A stretch of 64,000 nucleotides of DNA from NCBI GenBank assembly GCA_016283155.1, contig JAEEMI010000019.1, positions 1 to 64,000 of the forward strand, written 5' to 3'. Position 1 is the stretch's first letter, and every line of letters starts with the position of its first letter. This DNA comes from Clostridia bacterium. Its GTDB lineage: Bacteria > Bacillota > Clostridia > Christensenellales > UBA1242. This document shows, in pieces, positions 32,801 through 56,854 of the stretch. The translations under genes and the position numbers were made by a program. The notes under the pieces were generated by a model. It did no database searches, had not been told where the DNA came from, and saw only the letters and a list, made by a program, of their open reading frames with translations.

Positions 32801-32997
32801 TCAATTACAGATGGTACAGTGCCAAAAATATTTTGGTGGCCTTTAGCCGACCATTGGTCGCAATATTCGGCCATATCAGAACTAGGTGTGATTGGGTAAA
32901 TTGAAGCAGCTTCTGTCAAAAAATATGCAGTGCGCGCTGTCGCTTCATTACCTGATATTGTTTCAAAATTTTGTTGATTGGTTTCTTTTTGATTCAT
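29851..32997 (-). CDS. nifJ: Pyruvate:ferredoxin (flavodoxin) oxidoreductase
   Basis: EAAYFLTEAASIYPITPSSDMAE, two [4Fe-4S] motifs CIQCNRCAMVCPHA / CTGCGSCAKVCPA, TPP domain GDGWAYDIGFGGLDHVLA. Confidence 0.95.
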   Translation of the reverse strand: MNQKETNQQNFETISGNEATARTAYFLTEAASIYPITPSSDMAEYCDQWSAKGHQNIFGTVPSVIEMQSEAGAAGTLHGLLLGGTLGTTFTASQGLLLMIPNLYKMVGELLPAVVHVAARTIATHALSIFGDHSDVYACRSTGIAMLASNSVQENADLSLISHLAAIEASYPFMHIFDGFRTSHEFNKIQIPTDTIAKKLLNQEALAKFRDRAMSSDNPKMYGTAENSDTFFQHREAANPYINAIPNIVENYMQQFAKLTGRRYQLFDYVGAPDAEHIIVAMGSACETIAETLPKLKGKYGLIKVRLFRPFSAKHLLNVIPQTVKTITVLDRTKENGAVGDPLYLDVAAVIRNKTILAGRYGLSSKEFTPDMVASIYENATQKQPKDHFTVGINDDVTHTSLIVIPRPDLHPQGGCRFYGLGSDGTVGANKNSCAIIGDNTELYSQAYFVYDSKKSGGTTISHLRFDKQPIHAPYLVTHPDFVACHNQTFLKKFDMLNGITDGGTFLLNTTYPVEKIDSILPDAVKRTLRDKHINFYIINAYQIAKELGLGVRINTIMQTAFFKLVNLIDYQKLKALLKAAIEKSYGKKGPAVVEMNNRAVDSADTALQKIDIQKLTITEQKDEVKKQTMIETINSLAGDTLPVSAFSPDGSAPTATTQYEKRNIATSLPHWIPENCIQCNRCAMVCPHATIRPVLTNQQTPDNFKTIKALGVPGYENYQYRVQISPHDCTGCGSCAKVCPARNKALVMESFEQVHEDENYQYSLTLPETPVTPNNVKLAQFNRPLFEFSGACAGCGETPYIKLLTQLYGDKLVIANATGCSSIYGGSSPTCPYAKNAAGHGPAWANSLFEDNAEFGFGLRKALNLRGETDKIVWIIGGDGWAYDIGFGGLDHVLASQENINILVLDTEVYSNTGGQASKATPKGAIAKFAASGKPTDKKDLGAMMMQYPNVYVAQIAMGANMEHTLKVLKEATEHNGPSLVIAMCTCINQGIDMSNSMGIMADAVKCGYTKLYHRNPKDGQMIIDSPVPTADINEFKSKQTRFRKKS

Positions 32998-33003
32998 AGC
33001 TTA

Positions 33004-33032
33004 ATTTTATCACGTATTGTGATTTTGGTCAA
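33004..33032 (-). promoter_or_regulatory. Putative leaderless promoter of nifJ
   Basis: Minus strand TTGACC (33027-33032) - 17 bp - TAAAAT (33004-33009) - 6 nt - ATG 32997. Confidence 0.7.
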
Positions 33033-51348: not shown

Positions 51349-51357
51349 AGGTTGTTT

Positions 51358-53274
51358 ATGAAAAAGAAGTTAATCCGCATTATAGTTGCGTTTGGTTTAT
51401 TCATAATAATTTTTACCGTTGACAAGATTGTTAATTTGGGTAATGTTTTTGACGGCGTAGATGGTCTTTGGTTGCCTTTAGGATTATATTTGGTCGTATA
51501 TTTGTTGGTTGGCTATGATGTGATTTGGAAGGCAATACGCAATCTATTTCGTGGGCAATTATTAGATGAAAATTTCTTAATGGTAATTGCAACTTTTGGT
51601 GCATTTGGTTTAGCAATTTACCGTGGTTTGATTGGTCAAAACATAGATGGATTTGATGAAGCTTGTGCTGTTTTGTTGTTTTATCAAATTGGTGAATGGT
51701 TACAAAAGTATGCCACAGGTAAATCACGTAATTCAATCGCTCATCTAATTGATTTGCGTCCGGATTATGCAAATTTGTTAGTTAATAATGAAATTACGAA
51801 AGTTGATCCTTATGAGGTTGCACTGGGGGCGTTGATAATAGTTAATCCTGGTGAAAAGATTCCTTTAGACGGTGTAATAGTTAAAGGCAATTCTGATCTT
51901 GATACGAAAAGTTTGACTGGTGAATCGTTGCCACGTTCAGTGAAAGTTAATGATGAAGTATTGAGCGGTTGTGTGAATTTAACAACACAAATTACAGTGC
52001 GTGTTACAAAAGTATTTTATGATTCAACTGCAAGTAAAATTTTAGATTTAGTCGAAAATGCAGCTTCAAAAAAATCAAAAACAGAAAATTTTATTACAAA
52101 ATTTGCACGTTATTACACACCAATTGTAATTACTGCAGCAGCCATATTGGCAATATTAACTGGGTTAATAATTAATGATTGGGGTATATCATTGTATCGT
52201 GCTTTAAACTTTTTGGTAGTTTCTTGTCCTTGTGCTTTGGTAATTTCTGTGCCTTTGTCATTTTTTGTGGCTTTGGGTGTTGCATCAAAAAATGGAATTT
52301 TAGTTAAGGGTTCTAATTATTTGGAACAATTAAACCGGGCAAACATTTTTGTCTTTGACAAAACGGGTACTCTAACTAAAGGTAACTTTGCGATTACTGC
52401 AATAGAACCGAAGGTAAACCAAAAAGAAATTTTAGCTTTGGCAGCGATTGCTGAACAAAATTCTAATCACCCAATTGCTCGTGCAATTGTTGCTGCATAT
52501 CAACACAAAATTCCCAATGGTTATTCACTAACTAATGTAGCTGGTTCAGGTGTAATTGCAACCAAAGATGATGAAACAATTTATTGTGGTAATGCTCATC
52601 TGTTAGAAAATCATCACATAAAATTTGTTCCGTATCCATCAGTTGGCACAGTAGTATATGTAGCCCATAATCAATCTTATGTTGGTTGTCTTGTCATTAA
52701 AGATGAAATCAAGACCGAAACTAGAGAAGTATTGGATTACCTAAATAAAATTCCTGCAAAAACTGTGATGTTAACAGGTGATAACGAGGCAGTCGCTACC
52801 GATGTTGCAACATCGTTAAAATTGACAATTTATCGTGCCAATTTATTACCACAAGATAAATTAAGTGCGGTAGAAGAATTATTTGAAACAAAAAAAATAA
52901 ATGATACTCTATGTTTTGTTGGTGATGGAACTAATGATGCACCAGTTTTAATGCGTTCTGATGTTGGTATTAGTATGGGTGGCATTGGTAGTGATGCGGC
53001 GATTGAAGCTGCTGATATTATTCTAATGCACGATGATTTACGTGGATTGATTGATGCTAAATGTTTAGCACGACGTACAATGCAAATTGTGAAACAAAAT
53101 ATCGTTTTTTCGATAATGGTTAAAATTGGTATTTTAGTACTATCGGCGGTAGGATTAGCAAATATGTGGTTGGCAATATTCGGTGATGTTGGAGTAACAT
53201 TATTAACAATTTTAAATGCTTTTCGGGTGAAGAAAAAATTGATTTTTAAATCAACAAAAAAGCGTGCCATTTGA
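51358..53274 (+). CDS. Cd/Zn/Co-type P1B ATPase (CadA/ZntA family) lacking its own HMA domain
   Basis: FLVVSCPCALVISVPLSFFVALG, DKTGTLT, VGDGTNDAPVL; ATG 51358 with AAAGG upstream. Confidence 0.9.
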   Translation: MKKKLIRIIVAFGLFIIIFTVDKIVNLGNVFDGVDGLWLPLGLYLVVYLLVGYDVIWKAIRNLFRGQLLDENFLMVIATFGAFGLAIYRGLIGQNIDGFDEACAVLLFYQIGEWLQKYATGKSRNSIAHLIDLRPDYANLLVNNEITKVDPYEVALGALIIVNPGEKIPLDGVIVKGNSDLDTKSLTGESLPRSVKVNDEVLSGCVNLTTQITVRVTKVFYDSTASKILDLVENAASKKSKTENFITKFARYYTPIVITAAAILAILTGLIINDWGISLYRALNFLVVSCPCALVISVPLSFFVALGVASKNGILVKGSNYLEQLNRANIFVFDKTGTLTKGNFAITAIEPKVNQKEILALAAIAEQNSNHPIARAIVAAYQHKIPNGYSLTNVAGSGVIATKDDETIYCGNAHLLENHHIKFVPYPSVGTVVYVAHNQSYVGCLVIKDEIKTETREVLDYLNKIPAKTVMLTGDNEAVATDVATSLKLTIYRANLLPQDKLSAVEELFETKKINDTLCFVGDGTNDAPVLMRSDVGISMGGIGSDAAIEAADIILMHDDLRGLIDAKCLARRTMQIVKQNIVFSIMVKIGILVLSAVGLANMWLAIFGDVGVTLLTILNAFRVKKKLIFKSTKKRAI

Positions 53275-53282
53275 CACGCTTT
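53259..53282 (+). terminator. Hairpin overlapping the cadA 3' end, possibly bidirectional terminator
   Basis: AAAGCGTG-ccatttga-CACGCTTT between convergent genes. Confidence 0.65.
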
Positions 53283-53287
53283 CTAAA

Positions 53288-54883
53288 TTAAAAATTACCT
53301 GTTCCTTCTTTTTCAATTATTGGTTGATCTTTAATATCACCTTTATCATAAGGATCATTTAGAATTGGATGATTTAAATTTTTTCCATAATCTTTGATTA
53401 TTTTAGAATTAAGATATGTGATGCCAATACCCGCACCGAATCTACCATATTTTGTATCAAAAACTATGCCGCCACCAATTCCTAAATTAAATTGCTTTTC
53501 ATTAAAGTTATAATTATTGTAACTAGCACAATACAAAGAAATGTTATCGTTTAATTTTCTTCCATAGTGAGCTATATTTACTCCTAAATTAAAACTATTT
53601 TTCCCGCTAGAAAATTGTAAACCTGGTTCAAGTTGTAATTCGGTATGAGAACCATTAGCCCAATTTCTACCGCCTGCAACATTTACAAATAGTGTATTTG
53701 ATTTAACATTGCCATTTTCCCATTGTTGTTTAAAACCGATACCACCATTTGCGTAATATTTGGTTGAATCAACTGGTATTTTACTTTTGACATCTATCGA
53801 GAAACCATCAAATGGTTTAAAATCGGGGTCTGGGTTAAGGTTTATACTTCCATCAACAAAGACAAAGTCACCAATTGTGATTTCATTTGGATCAATTTCA
53901 TTGCTGTAAACAATTTGTTTTTTGTTTTCGGCATCTTTTTTTGCGTGTTTAGCATTTTTAGTAAGGCCATCTGCAATGCATTCATCAATATCACGACCTA
54001 ATTTTTTTAATTTAGTAAATAAACGGGTAGTAGCATATGGCAATGCAATGTTTGTTACGATACCTTTGCACATTTGAGAATCACCAAACATTTCGCTAGG
54101 TAATACACTATAGATTTCATTTTGGGCAGCGTCAAATGTTTGTTTATCTGCATTGGTGAAACTATCTTTTGATGCTAATGTCATAATTTTGCTGAAATTT
54201 TTAATTAATGAATTTTTAATTTTGTTAGCATCTTGACCTTTATAATCATAATATGCCGATACAAGAGTAATAAAATCATTAATATAGGCATCGGTAACTG
54301 AAATACTTTCTGCACAAACATCTCGCTTACCGTTAACATTAAATTTAATATAAGTATTAACAGGATATCGTTCATCTGACCTAGCAATTACACCTTCTTT
54401 TGCACCATAGTTAACTAAAGCTGCACTGTCAGTAAACATATGGTTCTTGTGGGGCATCTCAACATTAACAACTTTAATTAGTTCGTCAACTGGTGCAGAA
54501 GTTTTTCGTTCAACAATTTGTTGCATTTTTTCATCTGATAGACCAGCTTTGTTGGCAATATTATGGTTTTTATTTTCTAATGCCAAAGCGAAGCAACCAT
54601 ACGATACATAAGCATCATTTACTTCTTTTATCAAATTAACAATTTCTTTTTTAAATTCAGCATCGGGTAAATCTTTTAATTTATTATATTGATTGAATAA
54701 TATATCGGATAAAAGTTCTGATGCTTTTTCATTATTATATAATTCTTTTTCCAAATTAACTTTTTTGTTTTCTGTAGCCGTTGGATTCTTGGCGAATACT
54801 GGACAGCACATCGCTCCCAACATACTAATTACACATAAGAATCTTTTACTTGATTGGTTAATGTTAATATCCTTTAATTTCAT
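53288..54883 (-). CDS. Secreted two-domain protein: helical Cys-containing domain plus C-terminal beta-barrel-like domain
   Basis: Signal peptide (FLCVISMLGAMCCPVFA); helical region ending SEMFGDSQMCKGIVTNIALPYATTRLFTKLKKLGRDIDECIADGL; then amphipathic strands GGIGFKQQWENGNVKSNTLFVNVAGGRNW...LQLEPGLQFSSGKNSFNLGVNIAHYGR...FNLGIGGGIVFDTKYGRFGAGIGITYL. Confidence 0.8.
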   Translation of the reverse strand: MKLKDININQSSKRFLCVISMLGAMCCPVFAKNPTATENKKVNLEKELYNNEKASELLSDILFNQYNKLKDLPDAEFKKEIVNLIKEVNDAYVSYGCFALALENKNHNIANKAGLSDEKMQQIVERKTSAPVDELIKVVNVEMPHKNHMFTDSAALVNYGAKEGVIARSDERYPVNTYIKFNVNGKRDVCAESISVTDAYINDFITLVSAYYDYKGQDANKIKNSLIKNFSKIMTLASKDSFTNADKQTFDAAQNEIYSVLPSEMFGDSQMCKGIVTNIALPYATTRLFTKLKKLGRDIDECIADGLTKNAKHAKKDAENKKQIVYSNEIDPNEITIGDFVFVDGSINLNPDPDFKPFDGFSIDVKSKIPVDSTKYYANGGIGFKQQWENGNVKSNTLFVNVAGGRNWANGSHTELQLEPGLQFSSGKNSFNLGVNIAHYGRKLNDNISLYCASYNNYNFNEKQFNLGIGGGIVFDTKYGRFGAGIGITYLNSKIIKDYGKNLNHPILNDPYDKGDIKDQPIIEKEGTGNF

Positions 54884-54889
54884 ACTAGA

Positions 54890-54918
54890 ATTTTAGCAAA
54901 TTTTGTTAAGATAGTCAA
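54890..54918 (-). promoter_or_regulatory. Leaderless promoter
   Basis: Minus strand TTGACT (54913-54918) - 17 bp - TAAAAT (54890-54895) - 6 nt - ATG 54883. Confidence 0.7.
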
Positions 54919-54970
54919 TATATGCTAGATAAAAATATTGACAATTTTTGCAAAGTTGAAATTTCACAAT

Positions 54971-55900
54971 TTATAAACTCTTTTCAGTTTCGGTTGTAGA
55001 ATTGTTTTTAATTGTATCAGTTAAAATGATTACGATGTCATCAATGTTATGACCTTTTTCTTTGGTGACAATCAATAAATGATTTAATGCTTGAATTCTA
55101 ACATTTTTGATAACTAAATTGAAACACGCATTTTTATCGCCCCAGACGGATTCAGGTAAATTATCAACTATATTATTAACTGCATTTTTTAATTGATTGG
55201 TTAAGTCTTGAACTTTCGTATCATTTGGGTCACTGACATTATAAGCATAGATTTGGTCCATTATCAGATGCATTTGTTGGTAATTTTGCACTAAAATGTT
55301 TTCAACTTGTTCGACAGGTTTCTTCGTGGTCTTTTGATAATAATCTAATGTACGTAACATTGTTTGATTTTCTAACTCTTCAGATACTAAATTGGTGTAA
55401 TCACATTTGTCAGTATTTTTCAGTAAATTATAACTGAATGTTGTATTGTATTTTTCATTGATTGCTTGAACATCATCGGGTTGATGATTGCCAGAGTAGG
55501 ACAACGATATCATATCTAAACAGGCACTGATAACAGGATTATGTTTATTGTAAGCATTAGATAGTTTATTATTGTTTTCAATTTCGTTAATCAGATATCC
55601 AGAAATATCGTTTTTAATTGCTTGTTCTTTTTGTGTATCGTCAATTTTTTCGTCAGATGATTCGTTCTGATCAAAATCTAAGTCATAACAAATAATTGAA
55701 TTTAATTGCTCCAAACCTTCTTGCTCAGTAAAAGTAATGCCATTATTATCGGCGGGGCGTTCAATTGGATTTTCGGCAAAATAATCACTCATTCCTGATG
55801 GTACACAACCTACTAATAATGTGCTAGCCAAAACTCCGGTAGTTGCTTTACCAATTTTTTTCCCAATATTCTTAAATTTTTCAGTAATATGGTTTACCAT
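54971..55900 (-). CDS. Lipoprotein paralogous to the helical domain of the 53288-54883 protein
   Basis: ASTLLVGC lipobox; PESVWGDKNACFNLVIKNVRIQALNHLLIVTKEKGHNIDDIVIILTDTIKNN aligns with PSEMFGDSQMCKGIVTNIALPYATTRLFTKLKKLGRDIDECIADGLTKN. Confidence 0.8.
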   Translation of the reverse strand: MVNHITEKFKNIGKKIGKATTGVLASTLLVGCVPSGMSDYFAENPIERPADNNGITFTEQEGLEQLNSIICYDLDFDQNESSDEKIDDTQKEQAIKNDISGYLINEIENNNKLSNAYNKHNPVISACLDMISLSYSGNHQPDDVQAINEKYNTTFSYNLLKNTDKCDYTNLVSEELENQTMLRTLDYYQKTTKKPVEQVENILVQNYQQMHLIMDQIYAYNVSDPNDTKVQDLTNQLKNAVNNIVDNLPESVWGDKNACFNLVIKNVRIQALNHLLIVTKEKGHNIDDIVIILTDTIKNNSTTETEKSL

Positions 55901-55906
55901 AAAATA

Positions 55907-55935
55907 ATTTTAACAAAAGATGTATAGACCGTCAA
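55907..55935 (-). promoter_or_regulatory. Leaderless promoter
   Basis: Minus strand TTGACG (55930-55935) - 17 bp - TAAAAT (55907-55912) - 6 nt - ATG 55900. Confidence 0.7.
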
Positions 55936-55963
55936 TTGAGTAAGGGAACAAAAATATTTGTGA

Positions 55964-56671
55964 TTATTTTTCTAAATCAGTTACTCGATCAAATTTAACG
56001 CCGAATCCGACTGATGCTTTTTTTAAACGACGTTCGGCAGCAATACCGACGGAAGAATGAAGTTTATTTCCTTGCGGATCGTATAATACGGTGAAGTCAA
56101 CTTGTGATTTGTTTTTCTTTTCGTTTTTACCTATTGTAATTTCACCACCAAATGGCGTATGCCACATCTTTTCGTGGCGGTAGGCAATGTTACCATTATA
56201 AACAATCATTGAATTCTCGGTACGATATTCAACTCCGCCAATTGCCGTTACATCAAAAAAATTACCATTTTTAAATTCTTTTTGAATCCCAATGTTAACT
56301 GCAGCTAAATTAGTAGTATTATCAACTCCTAAAGCCGAATATGAATCATCTTTAGTATTTGCAAGTTCAATGCCAGTGGTAAGTGCCCAATTATTTTTTA
56401 ATGGAAAAGCAGAATCAACTTTGGTATATGTTCCAAATTCGCTTGTACCATTGTCAAAAATGGCGACTTTGCCTCCAATGTTAGTGCTAACGATTGGTTC
56501 CTTTTTGATTTCTTCAAAATAAATATCTTCGACTGTTACGTCGTTTTTATCTTCATTATTAGTTTTCTGCTTTTTTATGTTTTTACTATAAACTGGTGTA
56601 ATACCTGCTAAAGCCCCAGTTAATGTAATTGTTGCTAGTAATTTTTTGTTAAGACGTCTTAATTTTTTCAT
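55964..56671 (-). CDS. Secreted beta-barrel-like protein
   Basis: Signal peptide (LLATITLTGALAGITPVYS) then amphipathic strands (WALTTGIELANT, LAAVNIGIQKEFKNGNFFDVTAIGGVEYRTE, SSVGIAAERRLKKASVGFGVKFDRV). Confidence 0.78.
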   Translation of the reverse strand: MKKLRRLNKKLLATITLTGALAGITPVYSKNIKKQKTNNEDKNDVTVEDIYFEEIKKEPIVSTNIGGKVAIFDNGTSEFGTYTKVDSAFPLKNNWALTTGIELANTKDDSYSALGVDNTTNLAAVNIGIQKEFKNGNFFDVTAIGGVEYRTENSMIVYNGNIAYRHEKMWHTPFGGEITIGKNEKKNKSQVDFTVLYDPQGNKLHSSVGIAAERRLKKASVGFGVKFDRVTDLEK

Positions 56672-56677
56672 ACGGGT

Positions 56678-56706
56678 ATCTTACTATATGTATATAGAAT
56701 AATCAA
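56678..56706 (-). promoter_or_regulatory. Leaderless promoter
   Basis: Minus strand TTGATT (56701-56706) - 17 bp - TAAGAT (56678-56683) - 6 nt - ATG 56671. Confidence 0.7.
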
Positions 56707-56779: not shown

Positions 56780-56854
56780 GCGGGAGTAGCACAGCGGTAG
56801 TGCGTCGCCTTGCCAAGGCGAAGGTCGTGAGTTCGAACCTCATTTCCCGCTCCA
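56780..56854 (+). tRNA. tRNA-Gly (anticodon GCC)
   Basis: GCGGGAGTAGCACAGCGGTAGTGCGTCGCCTTGCCAAGGCGAAGGTCGTGAGTTCGAACCTCATTTCCCGCTCCA; loop TTGCCAA; encoded CCA. Confidence 0.95.

Follow-up and report, generated by a model that had tools for sequence, protein, structure and literature searches.

Three tandem genes on the minus strand of the window (the whole stretch of 64,000 nucleotides of Clostridia DNA that was analysed) encode exported proteins in which a helical module and a predicted beta-barrel module occur both joined and apart. In our best reading, to which we assign a probability of roughly 40%, they represent a genus-restricted, fast-evolving family of surface or secreted proteins, whose OmpX/Ail-type barrel would enter or adhere to a membrane outside the producing cell. 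To our knowledge, an entire syntenic family of such architecture has not been described so far. The three genes, first proposed in a sequence-only reading, were confirmed as open reading frames, and the arrangement suggested there was borne out: helical plus barrel in the 531-aa protein, helical in the 309-aa protein and barrel in the 235-aa protein. The features of the region are:

51352..53274, plus strand: P-type metal ATPase, the neighbour on one side (context only; kept in G001, G002 and G007)
53257..53284, minus strand: terminator-like hairpin of 12 pairs with a T-rich tail, 3' of the fused gene
53288..54883, minus strand: fused protein, 531 aa (an ORF with AlphaFold helices and strands and orthologs in six other species), comprising a signal peptide (~1-31), a helical domain (~48-305), a beta-barrel domain (~334-492) and a short C-terminal tail
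54884..54918, minus strand: fused-gene promoter, TTGACT-N17-TAAAAT with an extended -10 (TGC), 6 nt from the ATG, a layout kept in all six orthologs
54971..55900, minus strand: helical-only lipoprotein, 309 aa, lipobox LLVGC32, paralog of the fused protein's helical domain
55901..55935, minus strand: promoter of the helical lipoprotein gene, TTGACG-N17-TAAAAT, 6 nt from the ATG
55964..56671, minus strand: barrel-only exported protein, 235 aa, with a signal peptide and a beta-barrel domain (recognised by HMM) and without a Pro-rich tail
56672..56706, minus strand: promoter of the barrel-only gene, TTGATT-N17-TAAGAT, 6 nt from the ATG
56780..56854, plus strand: tRNA-Gly(GCC), adjoining the cluster

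The signal peptides of the cluster proteins, of the Sec type expected of OMPs, and the lipobox of the 309-aa protein are visible by direct reading of the sequence. The hairpin is the single terminator-like structure found in the whole cluster and is common to all three genes; as each gene also has a promoter of its own, the cluster is no simple operon. Searches of Pfam, NCBIfam and PDB sequences with the cluster proteins, and of the PDB with a profile, returned nothing above threshold. In the libraries searched the family is neither named nor annotated, in agreement with the earlier suggestion that it is undescribed.

The proposed paralogy of the helical modules in the 309- and 531-aa proteins was upheld by BLASTP (E=1e-4 for the pair) and by a Smith-Waterman score of 83, which was reached by none of 500 shuffles; the best match of the 309-aa protein was the fused ortholog of G007 (score 100, ~7 sd above shuffles). 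An HMM built from the six fused proteins of the other species, with the window sequences left out, misses the 309-aa protein (3.6 bits), whose homology therefore rests on the pairwise tests. As for the barrels, the pair originally quoted in support of their likeness is weak when the 235- and 531-aa proteins are compared within the window, 10 of 500 shuffles reaching its score, but the likeness is significant through the orthologs: with the same HMM the 235-aa protein scored 27.5 bits, where ~1000 shuffles peaked at 9.7, and the 531-aa protein 135 bits. The Cys by which the helical domain had been characterised did not hold up as a conserved part of its motif, since Arg occupies this place in six of the seven fused proteins. 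A 369-aa lipoprotein with a leaderless promoter (L062:1536-2645) has an N-terminus resembling that of the 531-aa protein (MKLKNINTNLFN vs MKLKDININQSS); beyond this, no homology between the two was detectable.

Profile searches of ~1,100 genomes placed all relatives in a single genus. The fused protein is present in 7 of its 10 genomes (species), the window's included, while 287 further genomes from the taxonomic family yielded none; the three genus genomes lacking it are 73-85% complete, and its absence there is uninformative. Order-wide (396 genomes) and class-wide (391) searches yielded only weak, unrelated-looking matches, to InlB-type repeat and similar surface proteins in the former and mostly over short N-terminal stretches in the latter. 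Helical-only relatives were found in G004 (294 aa, adjoining the fused gene), G007 (a 375-aa lipoprotein at another place in the genome) and G008 (a fragment at a contig end). The fused genes of G002 and G005 lack a helical gene next to them, and the second genes that accompany fused genes proved to be variable paralogs.

Judged by its recurring flanks, the family mostly occupies one inherited chromosomal slot. The tRNA-Gly(GCC) lies beside family genes in G000, G001, G002, G004 and G008, and the other flank is the P-type ATPase or a thioredoxin/tRNA-Arg block in G000, G001, G002, G004 and G007; the exception is G005, where the fused gene stands between rpoB and a MATE gene. Contamination of one metagenome-assembled genome was rejected because several genomes show the same slot flanked by the same neighbours. 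A phage or plasmid origin was likewise discarded, as no match was found in phages, plasmids or IMG/VR and the genes lie in a syntenic chromosomal position instead. Mean identity among the fused proteins is 30% (24-46%), compared to 69% for the neighbouring P-type ATPase, 72% for phosphoglucomutase, 82% for ArsR and 48% for the thioredoxin-like protein, indicating that the family evolves fast relative to adjoining genes. Its helical and barrel modules are equally divergent (30.4% and 29.4% identity).

Although the proteins diverge, the promoter block is conserved among orthologs. Each gene of the family is preceded by a separate promoter of the type TTGAY-N17/18-TANNNT, near the vegetative sigma-A consensus, which ends 5-7 nt before the ATG, the gap being exactly 6 nt in all seven fused genes; most fused orthologs also have in common an upstream AT-rich tract (AAAATATTTTT) and TATTGAC. 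No Shine-Dalgarno sequence was found before the family genes; SD-like sequences precede several neighbouring genes. With so short a gap and no Shine-Dalgarno sequence, the family genes are predicted to give rise to leaderless mRNAs. The G005 fused ORF (L011:7042-7066) has a GTG start inside the promoter, and an ATG eight codons further fits the leaderless layout. Leaderless promoters are not a trait specific to the family, as such sites occur genome-wide: G000 holds 16 in which a -35/-10 pair ends 5-7 nt before an ATG, vs 1 in a reversed-pattern control, and 13 of the 16 are unconnected with the family and in most cases mark genuine gene starts (rpmH, gmk, acyl carrier protein). Leaderless transcription seems common in the window's Clostridia lineage. 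Examples of such sites are found at 32995-33032 of the window and in L056, L057 and L070.

The idea of a barrel-like domain gained support from structure prediction. In the AlphaFold2 model of the 531-aa protein the helical domain reached a pLDDT of ~75-94 and the barrel (strands 334-492) only ~50-70. The confident barrel model is that of the G001 ortholog's domain (8-row alignment; pLDDT 92, pTM 0.81), with nine strands of alternating faces. Nine strands, as counted by DSSP, would be an unusual number for a barrel. With this model, Foldseek pointed to an OMP-like fold, the nearest being FapF (probability 1.00), OmpX (1.00; TM 0.55-0.60) and OmpW (0.96), along with other porins, at weak E-values that were all above 0.001 (best 0.023); low-probability matches included soluble barrels of the GFP type. 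Sub-threshold Pfam matches were mostly to OMP families (OMP_b-brl in three of eight members, best E 1.1e-4; autotransporter, 0.0023), and no OMP-family profile exceeded its curated cut-off, the G001 member scoring 19.8 bits vs 28.7 for PF13505. Strand faces, assigned by a simple hydropathy-window method that provides supporting evidence only, had a polar-face Gly fraction of 0.17-0.28 (mean 0.23) in the family, 0.08-0.22 (0.14) in five E. coli OMPs and 0.03-0.06 (0.04) in five soluble beta proteins (Blc, YceI, ZinT, LolA and LolB); charged residues made up 0.31, 0.34 and 0.48, respectively. By this measure the family's Gly-rich polar strand faces resemble those of transmembrane OMPs, unlike those of soluble beta proteins. 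Taken together, these data suggest an OMP-like (OmpX/Ail-type) fold that may close into a beta-barrel of ~8-9 strands. The fused proteins run on past it into a hydrophilic, often Pro-rich tail. For the helical domain, the fold search gave no convincing match.

Such a barrel is indeed unexpected in this host, as had been noted from the sequence. Neither Omp85 nor TamB was detected in any of the 10 genus genomes (positive controls were detected in 7 and 6 known genomes, respectively), and no OMP-folding machinery was found in them. The genomes are 73-90% complete, so that a joint chance absence of both proteins across ten genomes is improbable. Spo0A was present in all ten, and the genus reads as monoderm. 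These results support the earlier description of a monoderm and, putatively, a spore-former. Profile surveys have reported OMP-family matches in Firmicutes outside Negativicutes (OMPdb, PMC9581022), so an isolated OMP-like match in such bacteria is not unheard of.

The family shares with OmpX, Ail and the eight-stranded transmembrane domain of OmpA a predicted single-chain antiparallel barrel-like domain of ~150 residues, with a Gly-rich polar face and a hydrophobic-aromatic other face, and OmpX is among its best Foldseek probabilities. It differs from them in its ninth strand, its N-terminal helical domain, the hydrophilic tail after the last strand, a host without Omp85 and the lack of a sequence match above the Pfam cut-off. 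The likeness to PF13505 is confined to the three members mentioned, those other than the G001 member being known by E-value only. FapF, an amyloid secretion barrel with a helical plug, also combines a barrel and a helical part in one exported protein; it is a 12-strand barrel operating in the outer membrane, whereas the family has ~9 strands and a much larger helical domain.

One way in which these proteins might work is as follows. The helical module, joined to the OmpX/Ail-like barrel, would be exported to the surface or medium by a cell that has no outer membrane of its own and uses the small barrel externally. There the barrel may insert into, or stick to, the membrane of another cell that it meets, be it of a host, a protist or a bacterium; the fused protein would then act as a membrane-anchoring adhesin, not a pore. 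From the membrane of the producing cell, the helical lipoprotein may pair with the fused protein's helical domain and serve as its tether, and the rapid divergence would mirror a changing partner or immune pressure. Among the roles considered we favour an adhesin-like surface or secreted protein, whose barrel may bind a membrane and whose helical module may serve for pairing or presentation. A bolder version, which we regard as less probable, is that a monoderm without Omp85 makes self-inserting OMP-type barrels that, with helical module and lipoprotein tether, serve as BAM-independent adhesins. OMP-type barrels are thought to depend on Omp85 and on the presence of an outer membrane. A barrel family that is inherited vertically and evolves fast in a genus with neither would offer a natural test of BAM-free barrel folding, and would be a candidate means by which a gut bacterium with a reduced genome makes contact with its partners.

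The most serious competitor, less probable than the reading above but still a sizeable possibility, is a small soluble barrel that binds a ligand or adheres, with its hydrophobic residues turned inward as in a lipocalin or avidin, and that is secreted or exposed at the surface without ever entering a membrane. It would suit a genus without an outer membrane or Omp85 for insertion, a barrel followed by a hydrophilic tail, and the soluble barrels among the low-probability Foldseek matches; the high-probability matches, however, are OMPs, and the polar faces, rich in Gly and less charged, are closer to those of transmembrane OMPs than to those of the five soluble proteins. Residence of the barrels in a cryptic outer membrane, or in another OMP-bearing envelope layer, would explain an OMP-type barrel with export signals, yet it is very improbable given the absence of Omp85 and TamB from all ten genomes, the presence of Spo0A in each and the absence of the family from all other genera sampled. 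An Omp85/BamA-assembled outer membrane in particular is contradicted by that same absence. Hardly more probable is a housekeeping role in sporulation or the envelope, between mother cell and forespore membranes: engulfment does create an intermembrane space in spore-formers, and Spo0A is present in all ten genus genomes, but the promoters fit the vegetative sigma-A consensus, the proteins diverge far faster than their neighbours and the rest of the taxonomic family lacks them.

The sequence-only reading had also considered a toxin/immunity pair and a surface pore. A contact-dependent or secreted effector, antibacterial or directed against a host, whose barrel permeabilises foreign membranes and whose lipoprotein confers immunity, agrees with the fast divergence, the export signals and the lipoprotein gene adjoining the fused gene. 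We consider it improbable: the toxin/immunity pairing, with its obligate adjacency, is unsupported because the fused genes of G002 and G005 stand without a helical neighbour, second genes elsewhere are variable paralogs, and the lipoprotein has, instead of an unrelated immunity fold, a module paralogous to one in the fused protein. Furthermore, a single-chain barrel of 8-9 strands is expected to be too narrow for good conductance. OmpX and OmpA, which are of this size, lack a wide open channel, which makes a single-chain pore unlikely, and no family or PDB sequence match linked the cluster proteins to beta-pore-forming toxins.

Several smaller observations concern the relatives. In G004, C48 (L037:2-1988) holds degenerate copies of the helical module, a 286-aa open end followed by 194 and 173 aa in different frames, which likely represent a decaying paralog. 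The fused proteins of G001, G002 and G008 (L009, L012, L034) end in a common [EHN][KD]PVDL[ST] after a Pro/Thr-rich tail. Finally, the G001 record L040 (JAMPCO010000006) is titled Prevotella sp. in GenBank, the records of the other relatives being 'uncultured Clostridia'; as its contig is syntenic with the window's Clostridia genus, this title is probably wrong.
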